A stretch of DNA of 61,258 nt from an uncultured Bacteroidia bacterium (lineage in GTDB: Bacteria > Bacteroidota > Bacteroidia > Bacteroidales > UBA932): NCBI GenBank assembly GCA_902796555.1, contig CADBPR010000059.1:1-61258 (forward strand). Direction: 5' to 3'. Shown here piece by piece: positions 51,395 to 57,177 of the stretch; the stretch's first letter is position 1, and the number at the start of each line of letters is the position of its first letter. A program made the translations under genes and the position numbers. The notes under the pieces were generated by a model, which did no database searches, was not told where the DNA came from, and was given only the letters and a program-made list of their open reading frames with translations.

Positions 51395-52510
51395 ATGGGC
51401 CTGAACAAAATCAGACGGCTTTTCTTCCTGGCGGCATGGCTGTGCTGCCTGCCTTTGCATGCCCAGCGCCTGGAAGACAATTGGATGGCCGGGTTCGGCG
51501 ACGTCCGCGGCCTGTGGGAACGCTCGGATACGGTGACGGTGACGCTCATCGGCGATGTCATGATGCATGCGCGCCAGCTGCAATACGACTGTACCGCCTT
51601 TCTGGAAGGCATCCGTCCCTTGCTGCAGACGTCCTCCCTGGCCGTGGCCAACATGGAGTTCACCCTGGCGGGAGAGCCGTATACGGGCTATCCGAGTTTT
51701 TCGGCGCCGGACCGTTATGCGGATTATGTCCGGGACTGCGGCGTCGATGTGTTCCTGCTGGCCAACAACCATATCCTGGACAAGGGTAATGCCGGGCTGC
51801 TGCGGACCCTGGGCGTCTACCGGGCGATGGAAGGGGTGTACTATACCGGTGTGGCGGAGGATGATGCCGAAGAAGCGGCGACCCATCCGCTGATACTGGC
51901 TGCGGGCGGCATCCGCATCGCTTTTGTCAACGCGACCTACGGTACCAATCACCCGGGCGGACGCGGCTGGCCGAAAGTCAACCGGCTGGCGGAAGCGGAC
52001 CTGGTCCCGGCCATTGACCGGGCCCGTCGCGCGGGTGCGGATTTTGTCATCGCCCTGCCGCATTGGGGCGAAGAATATGCGCTGCGGCACAATGCCGCCC
52101 AGGAACGGACGGCCCGCATGCTGGCCGAGGCAGGGGCGGATGTCGTGGTCGGAGCCCATCCCCACGTGGTTCAGGACAGTTGCACCGTCGTGACGAGCCG
52201 GGGGCGCCGGGTGCCGGTTTTCTATTCCCTGGGCAACGCCGTCTCCAATATGAGCGCGGTCAACACCCGGCTGGAACTGGCTGTTACCCTGCGCTTTGTC
52301 AACCGCCCCTGGAACCGTCCCGAAATGCTCCCGCCCCGGGTTCATTTCCTGTGGTGTACGCTGCCCGGCAAACGGACGGACAACTACGGCACGATTCTCG
52401 TACGGGATGCGCTGGGACACCGGGACGAATGGCTGCAGCCGTCCGACTATGACAACATGGTTTCCACCTGGGAACGGGTGAAGTCCGTCACGGGTATCCG
52501 CGAGGAATAA
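51395..52510 (+). CDS. CapA family metallophosphoesterase-like protein
   Basis: This 371-residue secreted protein has signal peptide 'KIRRLFFLAAWLCCLPLHAQ'. CapA/PgsA-type (PF09587) blocks are 'VTLIGDVMMHARQ' (about 48-60), 'VANMEFTLAG', 'FLLANNHILDKGNAGL', 'VIALPHWGEEY' and 'VVGAHPHVVQD', ending near 'VPVFYSLGNAV'. The Asp/His/Asn-rich motifs fit a metal-dependent phosphoesterase. In Bacillus the family helps make poly-gamma-glutamate; no capsule genes are nearby, so the substrate is not assigned. Confidence 0.9.
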   Translation: MGLNKIRRLFFLAAWLCCLPLHAQRLEDNWMAGFGDVRGLWERSDTVTVTLIGDVMMHARQLQYDCTAFLEGIRPLLQTSSLAVANMEFTLAGEPYTGYPSFSAPDRYADYVRDCGVDVFLLANNHILDKGNAGLLRTLGVYRAMEGVYYTGVAEDDAEEAATHPLILAAGGIRIAFVNATYGTNHPGGRGWPKVNRLAEADLVPAIDRARRAGADFVIALPHWGEEYALRHNAAQERTARMLAEAGADVVVGAHPHVVQDSCTVVTSRGRRVPVFYSLGNAVSNMSAVNTRLELAVTLRFVNRPWNRPEMLPPRVHFLWCTLPGKRTDNYGTILVRDALGHRDEWLQPSDYDNMVSTWERVKSVTGIREE

Positions 52511-52602: not shown

Positions 52603-53118
52603 ATGAGAACAGCTGTCATACCCCTGTTGCTGGCCGCCGTTTTGCTGGTGACCGGTTGCGATGCATTCCGCCGGCTGGCCGGACGGCCCACCGCCGCTGA
52701 GTTGCAGGCCAAAAAGGAACATGTCCTGATGGAACGCGAAGCTGCGCGTCAGGCGGTGCGGGATTCAATCGAAAAGGTCCGCGCCGACTCCCTCCTGCGG
52801 GTGCAGGAAGCCCTGGATTCCCTGGAAACCTTGCGGACGACCGGTCAGGCCAAGAGCTCCCGGGGGCTGCTGGCGGAAGCTTTTCCGAAGCGGTATGCCG
52901 TGGTGCTGGGCGCCTTCAGCGTGCCGGAAAACGCCACCCGTTTTGCGGAAAAGGTGAAAAAAGCGGGCTATGACGCCCGGACCGTCGCCTTCCGAAACGG
53001 ACGGACAGCCGTGTACGTCAACCCTACCGACCGGGAGCAGGAAGCCTTCGATTCCATGGAAAAAGTCCGTCAGGAGGATTTCTGCCCGCAGGATGTCTGG
53101 ATTCTCGTCAATGAGTAG
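52603..53118 (+). CDS. SPOR-domain lipoprotein
   Basis: This 171-residue protein has lipobox 'LLVTGC' (Cys19). A charged helical stretch follows (about 30-80, 'LMEREAARQAVRDSIEKVRA'). The C-terminal SPOR domain (about 95-170) is 'KRYAVVLGAFSVPENATRFAEKVKKAGYDARTV' (in part). SPOR domains bind glycan strands stripped of peptide side chains at division septa, so a role at the cell wall is likely. The last 8 bases overlap the start of the M28-like/TonB gene. Confidence 0.88.
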   Translation: MRTAVIPLLLAAVLLVTGCDAFRRLAGRPTAAELQAKKEHVLMEREAARQAVRDSIEKVRADSLLRVQEALDSLETLRTTGQAKSSRGLLAEAFPKRYAVVLGAFSVPENATRFAEKVKKAGYDARTVAFRNGRTAVYVNPTDREQEAFDSMEKVRQEDFCPQDVWILVNE

Positions 53119-54439
53119 GCTGAAAATAATCTGTATGCTGCTGATGCTGCTCCCGTGGGCGGCATCGGCCCAGTTCCGCAGCACCATGCTGCAGGGAGAC
53201 GAAAGCGAGACCGTGCAAGCGCTGCGCGGCCACGTTTCGTATTGGACGGCGGCGGCCCTGGAAGGACGGGCAGCCGGGTCCGAGGGCGAAAAAGAGGCGG
53301 CGGAATACCTGTATGATATCCTGGAAGGATACGGCGTGGAGATGGTTTGTCCCCGGCAAGGGGAGACCTTCGGCATCGCCCGGGACAACGGGGACACCCT
53401 GACCTCCCGCAATATCATCGGCATCGTCCAGGGCTATGACGTCAAACTGCGGGACCGCTACATCGTGGTCGGCGCGCGGCTGGACAATCTCGCGCCCGGT
53501 GTGCTGACGGTCGACGGGGAACCGCATGTGCAGCGATATCCCGGAGCCAACGGGAACGCCTCCGGTCTGGCGATGCTGGCCGAACTGGCCCGGATGGTCT
53601 CCATCAATGCCGTGCTGTTCCGCCGCAGTGTGATTTTCGTCGGATTCGGTGCGTCCCGGGAAGCGTTCGCCGGCTCATGGTACTTCCTGAACCGGTCGTT
53701 CTCCGATGTCCCCGGCATTGACGCGATGATCAATCTGGATATGCTGGGTGCCGGTGAGGAATTCTATGCCTATACCGCCTCCAACGCTGATTTGAACCGC
53801 CTGGTGGCGGCCATTGAACTGCCGCCGGTCAAGCCGGTGCTGACAGCGGCGGAGCCTTATCCGTCCGACCACCGGAGCTTCTATTCCAAACAGATTCCGT
53901 CCGTGTTTTTTACCCGCGGCATCTATGTCCAGCATGACAGTCCCCGGGACACCCCGGATATCCTCGATTACGAACTGATGGAGCGCGAGCTGGAGACGGT
54001 GTACAGCCTCTGCCGTGACCTGGCCAACCTGGACCGGGCGCCCGACTTTATTGCCGAGAGCGGTTCCGAGAGCAAGGATGACAAAGTCTACGCCTATGAC
54101 GCCGTCGACTTCAAACCGACCTTCCTGGGCTCCGCCTATCTGGGCACCTTCCTGGAAAAATGGGTCTATCCTTATTTGAAATACCCGCCGCAGGCCGTGG
54201 ATGAAAAGGTCCAGGGCACGGTGCACGTCCGTTTTACCGTAGACCGCAAGGGAAAGGTCGGCGACGTGCAGGTGGTCCGGTCCGTCCACCCGCTGCTGGA
54301 CGCAGAAGCCGAAAAGGTGATTGCCGCCTCGCCGAAATGGAAACCCGCCAAACTGAACGGGAAGACCGTTCCCTGCCGGATTACCGTACCGGTGGAATTC
54401 AAATTGACCAAACAAGCAACTTTTGATATCAAGAAATAA
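53111..54439 (+). CDS. M28 aminopeptidase-like protein with lost metal ligands, fused to a TonB C-terminal domain
   Basis: This 442-residue protein has signal peptide '[15 protein letters not shown]' (cleavage about 20). Residues 35-305 follow the M28 peptidase fold, including '[14 protein letters not shown]', '[14 protein letters not shown]', '[19 protein letters not shown]', 'INLDMLGAG' and '[10 protein letters not shown]'. Compared with the canonical HxD, GANDNASG, EE, D and H sites, the first His is Arg123, the bridging Asp is Gly148 and the Glu-Glu pair is Ser182-Arg183; only Asp125, Asp210 and His275 remain. Residues 355-434 are a TonB C-terminal domain ('[20 protein letters not shown]', '[21 protein letters not shown]'). 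There is no membrane anchor beyond the signal. A catalytically dead periplasmic binding or scaffold protein is inferred. It sits between a SPOR lipoprotein gene and leuS. Confidence 0.85.
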
Positions 54440-54441
54440 CT

Positions 54442-57177
54442 ATGGAGTACAATTTCAGGGAAATTGAGCAGAAATGGCAGGCCCGTTGGGCGGCAGAACA
54501 TACATTCAAGGCCGTGGAGGATGCCTCCCGACCGAAGTATTATGTGCTGGACATGTTTCCGTACCCGTCCGGTGCCGGTCTGCATGTGGGACATCCCTTG
54601 GGCTACATCGCCAGCGATATTTTTTCGCGCTACAAACGCCTGCAGGGATTCAATGTTCTCCATCCGATGGGATATGACGCGTTCGGCCTGCCGGCCGAGC
54701 AGTATGCCATTCAGACCGGGCAGCATCCGGAAGTCACCACGGACAAGAACGTGGCGCGCTACCGTCAGCAGCTGGACCGGATTGGCTTTTCCTATGACTG
54801 GGAGCGGAGTTTCCGTACCTGTGACCCGGACTATTTCAAATGGACCCAGTGGGCTTTCCTGCAGATGTTCGGCAGCTGGTATGACCCGGAGCAGAACAAG
54901 GCGCGTCCCATCACCGAATTGATTGCCCGTTTTGAATCCACCGGTTATGCCGATGTGACGCCGGAGCGCTGGAAGGCGGCTTCGGAGCGGGAGAAATCCG
55001 ATATCCTGATGAACTATCGGATTGCCTATCAGGGAGAAACATCCGTGAACTGGTGCCCGGAACTGGGTACGGTGCTGGCCAATGACGAGGTCAAGGACGG
55101 ACTCTCCGTGCGGGGCGGATTCCCGGTGGAGCAGAAGAAAATGACCCAGTGGCAGCTGCGCGTTTCGGCTTATGCCGAACGGCTGCTGGACGGTCTGGAC
55201 CGTTTGGACTGGACGGAATCCCTGAAAGAGATGCAGCGCAACTGGATTGGCAAATCCTACGGTACCGAAGTGGTTTTCACGGTGGAAACCGGTGACAAGA
55301 AGACCGACGTCACCATCTTTACCACCCGCGTCGATACGATTTTCGGTGTCACCTTCATGGTTCTGGCGCCGGAAAGCGAGCTGACGCAGCAACTGACGAC
55401 CCCCGGACAGGAAGCGGCCGTGGCGGAGTATCTCGCCTATGTGGCCAAGAAGACGGAACGGGAGCGGATGGCTGAAACGAAGACCGTAACAGGCGTATTC
55501 TCCGGTTCTTACGGTATCAATCCGCTGACCGGCCAGAAGGTGCCGGTTTGGATTTCCGAATACGTGCTGGCCGGCTACGGCACCGGTGCCATCATGGCCG
55601 TGCCTGCGCATGACAGCCGCGATTATGCCTTCGCCCGGAAATTCGACCTGCCCATCGTGCCCATCATCGAGGGCTGTGACGTCAGCGAACAGAGTTTCGA
55701 TGCGAAGGAAGGCCGTATGTGCAATTCCGGTTTCCTGAACGGCATGGATGTCAAGGAAGCCATTCCGGCCGCGATGGACTATGTGGAAGCCCACGGTCTG
55801 GGCCACCGCAAGACCAATTATCGTCTGCGTGACGCCATTTTCTCCCGCCAGCGTTACTGGGGAGAGCCGTTCCCGATTTACTACAAGAACGGAATTCCCA
55901 CTCCGCTTCCGCAGGAAGCCCTGCCGTTGACCCTCCCGGAAATCGACCAGTACAAACCGACGGCGGACGGACAGCCCCCGCTGGCCCGTGCCAAGGACTG
56001 GACCTATGACGGATGGCCCCTGGAGACGAGCACGATGCCGGGCTTTGCCGGCAGCAGTGCCTATTATCTGCGTTATATGGACCCGCGCAACGACCGGGCC
56101 CTGGTCAGCCCCGAAGCCAATGCCTACTGGCGCAGCGTTGACCTGTATATCGGCGGCACCGAACATGCCACCGGTCACCTGATTTATTCCCGTTTCTGGA
56201 ACAAATTCCTCTATGACCTGGGTTATGTCTGCGAAGACGAACCGTTCCGCAAGCTCATCAACCAGGGCATGATTCAGGGCCGGTCCAACTTCGTCTACCG
56301 CATCGTCGGGACGAATACCTTTGTGTCGGCCGGACTGAAGGAGCAGTACCAGACCCAGGAAATCCATGTGGATATCAGCCTGGTCCGCAATGACAGGCTC
56401 GACCTGGAAGGCTTCCGTGCCTGGCGCCCTGAGTTCGCCCAAGCCGAATTCGTGCTGGAGAACGGCGAATATATCTGCGGCTGGGCCGTCGAAAAGATGA
56501 GCAAGTCCATGTACAACGTCGTCAATCCCGACGATATCTGCGACAGCTACGGAGCGGACACCCTGCGGCTCTATGAGATGTTCCTGGGTCCCTTGGAACA
56601 GTCTAAACCTTGGGATACGAAGGGTATCGACGGTGTCCATCGTTTCCTGCGCAAATTCTGGCGGCTGTTCTATGACGGCGACCGTTTCCTCGTAACGGAC
56701 GAGGAGGCCTCCGCCGAAGATTTGAAGACCCTCCACAAGCTGATCGGGAAGGAACAGTCCGATATCGAGAACTTCTCGTTCAATACGACGGTGAGCGCCT
56801 TCATGATTGCCGTGAATGACCTGACGGACCGCAAAGTCTCCAAGCGGGCCGTGCTGGAGCCGATGGTCATCCTGCTTTCTCCTTTCGCCCCGCATATCGC
56901 CGAAGAACTCTGGCAGGCCCTCGGCCATACGGACAGCGTGGCCTATGCCGCATTCCCGGTCTACCATCCGGAGTATACGGTGGAGAACAACTGCACGTAC
57001 CCGGTTTCGTTCAACGGCAAGATGCGTTTTACGGTGGATTTGCCCAAGACCCTGACCCCTGCCCAGGTGCAGGAACAGGTGCTGGCGTCGGAACAGACCG
57101 CCCGCTACACGGACGGAAAGACCGTGGTCAAGGTGATTGTCGTCCCCGGAAAGATAGTCAATATTGTCCTGAAATAA
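54442..57177 (+). CDS. leuS: Leucyl-tRNA synthetase
   Basis: This 911-residue class I enzyme charges tRNA-Leu. The HIGH-type motif is 'HVGH' in '[16 protein letters not shown]' (about 48-51). The CP1 editing domain lies at about 220-420 ('[20 protein letters not shown]', '[17 protein letters not shown]'). KMSKS is seen in '[16 protein letters not shown]' (about 685). An anticodon-binding domain and a C-terminal domain follow. There is no visible T-box leader, since it starts 2 bp after the upstream gene and depends on the promoter near 52570. Confidence 0.97.

Follow-up and report, generated by a model that had tools for sequence, protein, structure and literature searches.

A conserved fusion of an M28 peptidase fold with a replaced zinc site and a TonB C-terminal domain in a genus of Bacteroidales

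Introduction

The locus described here raises the question of what an exported protein with the fold of a zinc peptidase does once other residues stand in its zinc site, and whether such a replacement is a private decay or has been kept in evolution. The gene lies in a window of 61,258 nucleotides, by which we mean the whole stretch of DNA that was analysed (contig CADBPR010000059.1 of assembly GCA_902796555.1, from an uncultured Bacteroidia bacterium). A sequence-only reading of the window had described it as an M28-type peptidase that has lost much of its active site and is fused to a C-terminal TonB domain.

M28 aminopeptidases hold zinc by ligands in the order H-D-E-D-H. Transferrin receptor and nicalin are non-cleaving relatives that act in binding or assembly, presumed to have an origin separate from that of the fusion family treated here, and to our knowledge non-cleaving M28 proteins are known mainly from eukaryotes. 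An excerpt of PMC7522609 places one zinc of M28 enzymes commonly at sites 2, 3 and 5 and the second at sites 1, 2 and 4, and gives glutaminyl cyclases a single zinc, which uses sites 2, 3 and 5. A term search of a review on metallopeptidase pseudoenzymes (PMC11266112) gave 0 occurrences of M28 in the main text, and no paper on an M28 and TonB_C fusion was found among the titles and abstracts listed in searches of the open-licence PMC literature, nor any there on the binding role of transferrin receptor and nicalin.

Results

The gene (53111..54439; coordinates written with two dots are on the forward strand) is a complete coding sequence of 442 amino acids for a secreted pseudo-M28/TonB_C fusion, as judged from its translation, Pfam, an AlphaFold2 model and homologues in the genus. 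By eye, the protein starts with a signal peptide without a lipobox cysteine (residues 1-20; 53111..53170), which ends ..SA-Q, and an Ala-Gln or Gly-Gln junction stands at a similar place in most of the homologues aligned. The M28 scaffold claimed by the sequence-only reading is present at residues 101-297 (53411..54001), where Pfam PF04389 scores 67.6 bits against a cut-off of 21.3 and places the protein in the M28 fold family. The TonB-type domain is also well formed (PF03544, residues 355-432; 54173..54406; 74.4 bits against 24.6) and aligns well with that of an anchored TonB from a relative. The AlphaFold2 model, built from a 59-sequence alignment, has a mean pLDDT of 92.8 and a pTM of 0.70, and a model of a canonical sister protein (locus L110) has a mean pLDDT of 87.9. 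In Foldseek searches of the PDB with the window protein, M28 aminopeptidases (2anp, 1tkf, 1amp) came out on top and glutaminyl cyclases lower, the latter including those of Bacteroidota (6qql, 7d1d), which share the M28 fold. Aminopeptidases of this family were among the best HMMER matches as well, and known members (1amp/2anp, 1tkf, 2ek8, LapA 6esl/6ica) have the same fold and motif order as the window protein.

By sequence, the C-terminal domain is the same as those of TonB proteins (2k9k, 2m2k HasB, 6fip, 6i97 and the anchored TonB of relatives). TonB itself, according to an excerpt of PMC12204202, has a transmembrane helix and a region that spans the periplasm. When the translation was read by eye, the window protein had no second hydrophobic segment and no Pro-rich spacer, and the lack of the anchor and long periplasmic spacer of a TonB energy transducer is thus borne out; it carries a signal peptide instead and, unlike TonB, an M28 domain between this peptide and TonB_C. 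The anchored TonB of relatives was sought but not found in the window's assembly, which is rated 83% complete, and may lie in unassembled sequence. We make no claim that the fusion holds the only TonB_C domain of a genome of this completeness. Near an ExbB match, the same genome encodes a 260-residue protein with an N-terminal hydrophobic segment (L198:3325-4107, contig C101) that looks like a TolA/TonB-type transducer, though it is absent from the TonB_C matches.

The motifs GARLD (R123), GANGNASG (G148) and GASREA (S182, R183) were read in the translation together with D210, as the sequence-only reading had it. Arg123 (codon 53477..53479) replaces the first metal His, Gly148 (53552..53554) the bridging Asp, and Ser182-Arg183 (53654..53659) the Glu-Glu pair of general base and metal ligand. 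The assignment of His275 as a further persisting ligand has to be corrected. In the phmmer alignment to 2ek8 and in alignment with canonical sister-genus proteins, the ligand His of YHTPxDT falls on Asp276 (53936..53938), and His275 aligns with the Tyr that precedes it. The H-D-E-D-H ligands thus correspond to R123, G148, R183, D210 and D276, with Asp210 (53738..53740) as the sole metal ligand retained; the earlier count of three missing ligands becomes four of five, whereas the loss of the general base stands. Compared with M28 aminopeptidases, the window protein keeps the fourth ligand only and has Ser182 in place of the base, and it lacks both the five-ligand set and the general base of an active enzyme. 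With the five sites mapped in sequence order, sites 1, 2, 3 and 5 are, as far as sequence can tell, replaced. By this mapping of ours, the zinc sites 2, 3 and 5 given for glutaminyl cyclases in the excerpt cited above are all among those replaced. Asp276 could itself contact a metal. With four of the five ligands and the base exchanged for other residues, loss of hydrolysis is very likely, in line with the expectation of the sequence-only reading.

The replacements are shared by the genus. A set of 76 same-genus sequences was compared, with that of the window counted in and one duplicate, fragments and further M28 proteins left out. Arg is found at position 123 in 72 of them, Gly at 148 in 71 and Ser at 182 in 71, and because they recur across this set the replacements are more than chance. 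Asp210 is present in 69 and absent in 7, and residue 183 varies freely. The canonical residues were found in 0 of the 76; two copies (L045 and L047) keep His123, both with Ala148 and Gly182. Of 571 confirmed hits the best 80 were taken as named loci, a choice that leans towards the window, and one of these was dropped for want of a readable frame. The combination of Arg123, Gly148 and Ser182 (R/G/S) was present in all 79 readable loci of these best 80, in which position 276 was Asn in 57, Asp in 18 and Gly in 4. Searches of 61 genus genomes gave a full-length gene in 51, a shortened form in three (G045, G009, G046), fragments in five and no match in two (G006 and G031). A further genus genome, G321, rated 96% complete, had no match at 1e-30, and the gene can therefore be dispensed with. 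Three genus copies (L054, L055 and L056) have a deletion that removes much of residues 126-147, which precede the motif with the bridging ligand, yet TonB_C is kept in them, as are the neighbouring SPOR and leuS genes described below.

Selection on the gene was estimated from pairs of R/G/S copies with 80-98.5% identity, each copy being used once, by our own Nei-Gojobori count. Of 29 such pairs, the 23 with dS < 2 were used; many of them have dS > 1, and two repeat others through a second collection with identical figures. Median dN/dS values were 0.054 (mature protein, 23 pairs), 0.045 (M28 domain, 23 pairs) and 0.037 (TonB_C, 22 pairs), and the highest whole-protein value among the 23 pairs was 0.113. 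Catalytic residues have been replaced in a gene under purifying selection, as is characteristic of a pseudoenzyme. Genus-wide conservation of the replacements and a dN/dS of about 0.05 bear out the proposal that the fold has been retained under selection, and on the same two grounds we reject a private decay. Canonical close homologues are absent from the 76 same-genus sequences.

Sister genera encode this fusion as well. Within the GTDB family, matches at E <= 1e-30 were found in 188 of 249 genomes, which belong to 16 of 25 genera. From these, 61 sister-genus copies were taken, one or two per genus and then down the ranking, so that the sample leans to better matches; 60 copies from 14 genera were readable. 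All six residues H-D-E-E-D-H (ligands and base) are present in 19 of the 60, in 5 genera, so that the loss, though old, does not extend to the whole family; 41 lack the full set. The ligand Glu183 is retained in 59 of the 60, and the four copies with a single change are all without the general base. The copies that have lost the site carry other residues there than the window's genus does (N, A, K, G, Q and others). The genus g56, with 13 copies, includes a canonical copy, partly changed copies and 7 copies with Arg123.

On a tree of 88 rows, built without the six active-site columns, the window's genus forms one group (100/99). If the canonical state was never regained, it has been lost on 12 branches; the root splits the window's genus into two branches, and the 13 computed losses are for this reason counted as 12. 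Stricter counting gives 11 losses with weak branches collapsed, 10 when at least two residues must have changed, and 8 with both conditions. When regain is allowed, parsimony requires 6 changes of the canonical state on this tree and 3 on a tree of 49 rows. The Arg123 copies of g56 fall in a well-supported group, remote from the window's genus and with His and Asn forms around it, which points to two separate origins of the Arg.

Both domains were matched in all 59 members of an alignment picked by us (A2). Across the order, a canonical sister query matched 61 of 393 genomes at E <= 1e-45. Both-domain matches occurred in the 6 same-family genomes among these, and in the other 55 the matches listed end by residue 325 of 444, that is, within the M28 half; up to four candidates were scored per genome, so that rarer fusions could be missed.

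The gene is tightly packed between its neighbours. The end of the upstream gene for a SPOR-domain protein (52603..53118), which by eye has a lipobox-like LVTGC, overlaps its start by 8 nt, and a gene in the same orientation (54442..57177), which from its sequence we take to be leuS, begins 2 nt after its stop. In the 80 named loci, the best of 571, tblastn matches to the SPOR protein were present upstream in 80 and to the leuS-like gene downstream in 78, and the gap between the SPOR and M28 genes was 30 nt or less in 66 of the 79 loci measured. In 21 sister loci, leuS lies downstream on the same strand in 18 and a SPOR match upstream in 15. By place, most copies look orthologous. A GcvT-like gene stands directly upstream in 14 of these 21 (our own reading, with the L110 copy confirmed by a scan), between the M28-TonB_C gene and the SPOR gene where the latter was found, and a glyoxalase-like gene takes this position in two sister loci scanned (L108 and L111). 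The earlier use of the SPOR operon as a functional clue is thereby weakened: the tight coupling is real in the window's genus, but among the loci compared it is seen there only, since the GcvT-like gene intervenes in sister loci. A link to peptidoglycan through SPOR is weakened on the same grounds. Further upstream (51428-52510) the window encodes a PGA_cap-domain protein (195.1 bits); a PGA_cap match is found in 73 of the 80 named loci (best 80 of 571), mostly on the opposite strand and in a few on the same one, which suggests local rearrangement.

Discussion

The best reading of these data is that an ancestrally active periplasmic M28-TonB_C peptidase was repeatedly turned into a non-cleaving binding module. 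Catalytic residues have been lost repeatedly while both domains were kept under strong selection, which argues for selected binding rather than cleavage. The zinc site of the protein in this gut-type bacterium has been replaced and the result kept in evolution, and the protein probably binds rather than cuts. It seems reasonably likely to us that the window protein is exported, probably soluble in the periplasm, free of catalytic zinc, and works as such a module.

A mechanism can be outlined on this basis. Arg123 would stand where the cations stood, perhaps paired with Asp125 or Asp210; an Arg in place of the cations is attractive on chemical grounds, and these contacts are hypothetical. The old peptide cleft may then bind the end of a peptide or protein and leave it uncut, and TonB_C would grip a second partner by strand addition, a mode of binding that we carry over by analogy from TonB and TolA. 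As it has no membrane anchor, the protein should not take energy from ExbB/ExbD itself. For peptide segments in the periplasm the fusion might serve as adaptor, cap or chaperone, with the N-termini of TonB-dependent transporters as possible targets. The recognition of peptide stems or of a TonB box, suggested by the sequence-only reading, is conjectural. Taken to its full extent, the proposal would be that zinc-free M28-TonB_C receptors arose repeatedly, some with Arg in place of the cations, and that their cleft reads a peptide terminus which the unanchored TonB_C hands to, or shields from, the TonB/transporter system; in this detailed form we regard it as speculative and rather unlikely.

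A somewhat doubtful but possible alternative is that the M28 half is a structural spacer or stabiliser, its motifs being kept for folding, and that the function lies in TonB_C, which would bind or compete for TonB-box-like segments. The entropy data bear on this in both directions. With the 91 R/G/S sequences left after thinning at 80% identity, the mean entropy was 0.607 at 42 motif positions versus 1.193 at the other 158 positions of residues 101-300, and 0 of 199 circularly shifted masks were as low; three of these 42 positions could not vary, since the set was chosen as R/G/S. The old active-site segments, about half as variable as the rest, are thus the most conserved part of the M28 domain, and Asp125, Asp253 and Phe257 are invariant in this set. 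These observations speak against a mere spacer, as does the equal conservation of the two domains in the R/G/S sequences (entropy 1.07 for M28 and 1.10 for TonB_C). In the sister genera, on the other hand, the motif positions show the same contrast (0.981 versus 1.735 elsewhere; again 0 of 199 shifts as low), and motif conservation may therefore reflect the fold rather than a ligand, or the fold no less than a ligand. There TonB_C is also the better conserved part (1.31 versus 1.58 for residues 101-300). That TonB_C is kept where the catalytic residues have repeatedly been lost, and stays even in the three copies with much of the metal loop deleted, would likewise be expected of a spacer.

It is improbable that the protein is still an enzyme, with a new metal-independent chemistry in which Ser182 and Arg123 work together with Asp125 or another residue close by. 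The strong selection on the M28 domain and the retention of Ser182 and Arg123 next to a freely varying residue 183 would suit such an activity. Against it, no catalytic triad was recognised, His254 is replaced in 8 of the 79 readable loci (named; best 80 of 571), and the sister-genus copies that have lost the site use a variety of other residues. Still less probable is a single metal, non-catalytic or weakly catalytic, held by Asp210, Asp276 and other residues: Asp210 is widely kept in the genus and Asp276 of the window could bind a metal, but position 276 is mostly Asn and sometimes Gly in the named loci, and the first His, the bridging Asp and the ligand Glu are gone. Neutral decay of a peptidase no longer needed, with which the many separate losses in the family, the free variation at 183 and the lack of a match in the near-complete genome G321 would agree, is hardly credible given the low dN/dS of all pairs used, the one R/G/S state that most of the genus has fixed and the open, full-length frames counted in 51 of the 61 genomes.

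We thus return to the selected binding module. The protein is an old, selected pseudo-M28/TonB_C fusion, and pseudoenzymes on the M28 fold are already a known kind. The profile of the fusion family matched chains of both transferrin receptor and nicalin, which have an M28-type domain; unlike the window protein, these are eukaryotic membrane proteins without TonB_C. What adds interest to the fusion is the recurrent series of losses. In a single family of Bacteroidales, a bacterial gene that mostly keeps the same chromosomal position shows the whole series: an intact site, a site short of the base alone, sites without metal ligands, and a fixed Arg form. How and why a zinc peptidase becomes a binding protein can thus be tested by comparing natural relatives. 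The fusion also suggests that TonB_C domains without an anchor have a role as yet unstudied.

Apart from the fusion, the window's genome (83% complete) gave a single M28-family match, a protein encoded on another contig (L071:1112-2122, or G000:C27:1112-2122), and canonical residues are missing from it too. It keeps AHYD and GADSNASG, its Glu-Glu pair is replaced (LDGHNAG) and its last His is Asn. This protein is matched at 1e-30 in 56 of the 61 genus genomes. In its best 20 copies, aligned with its own included, the Glu-Glu pair is present in 0 of 20, and by our own reading the position of the last His is occupied by Asn in 19 and by Phe in one.
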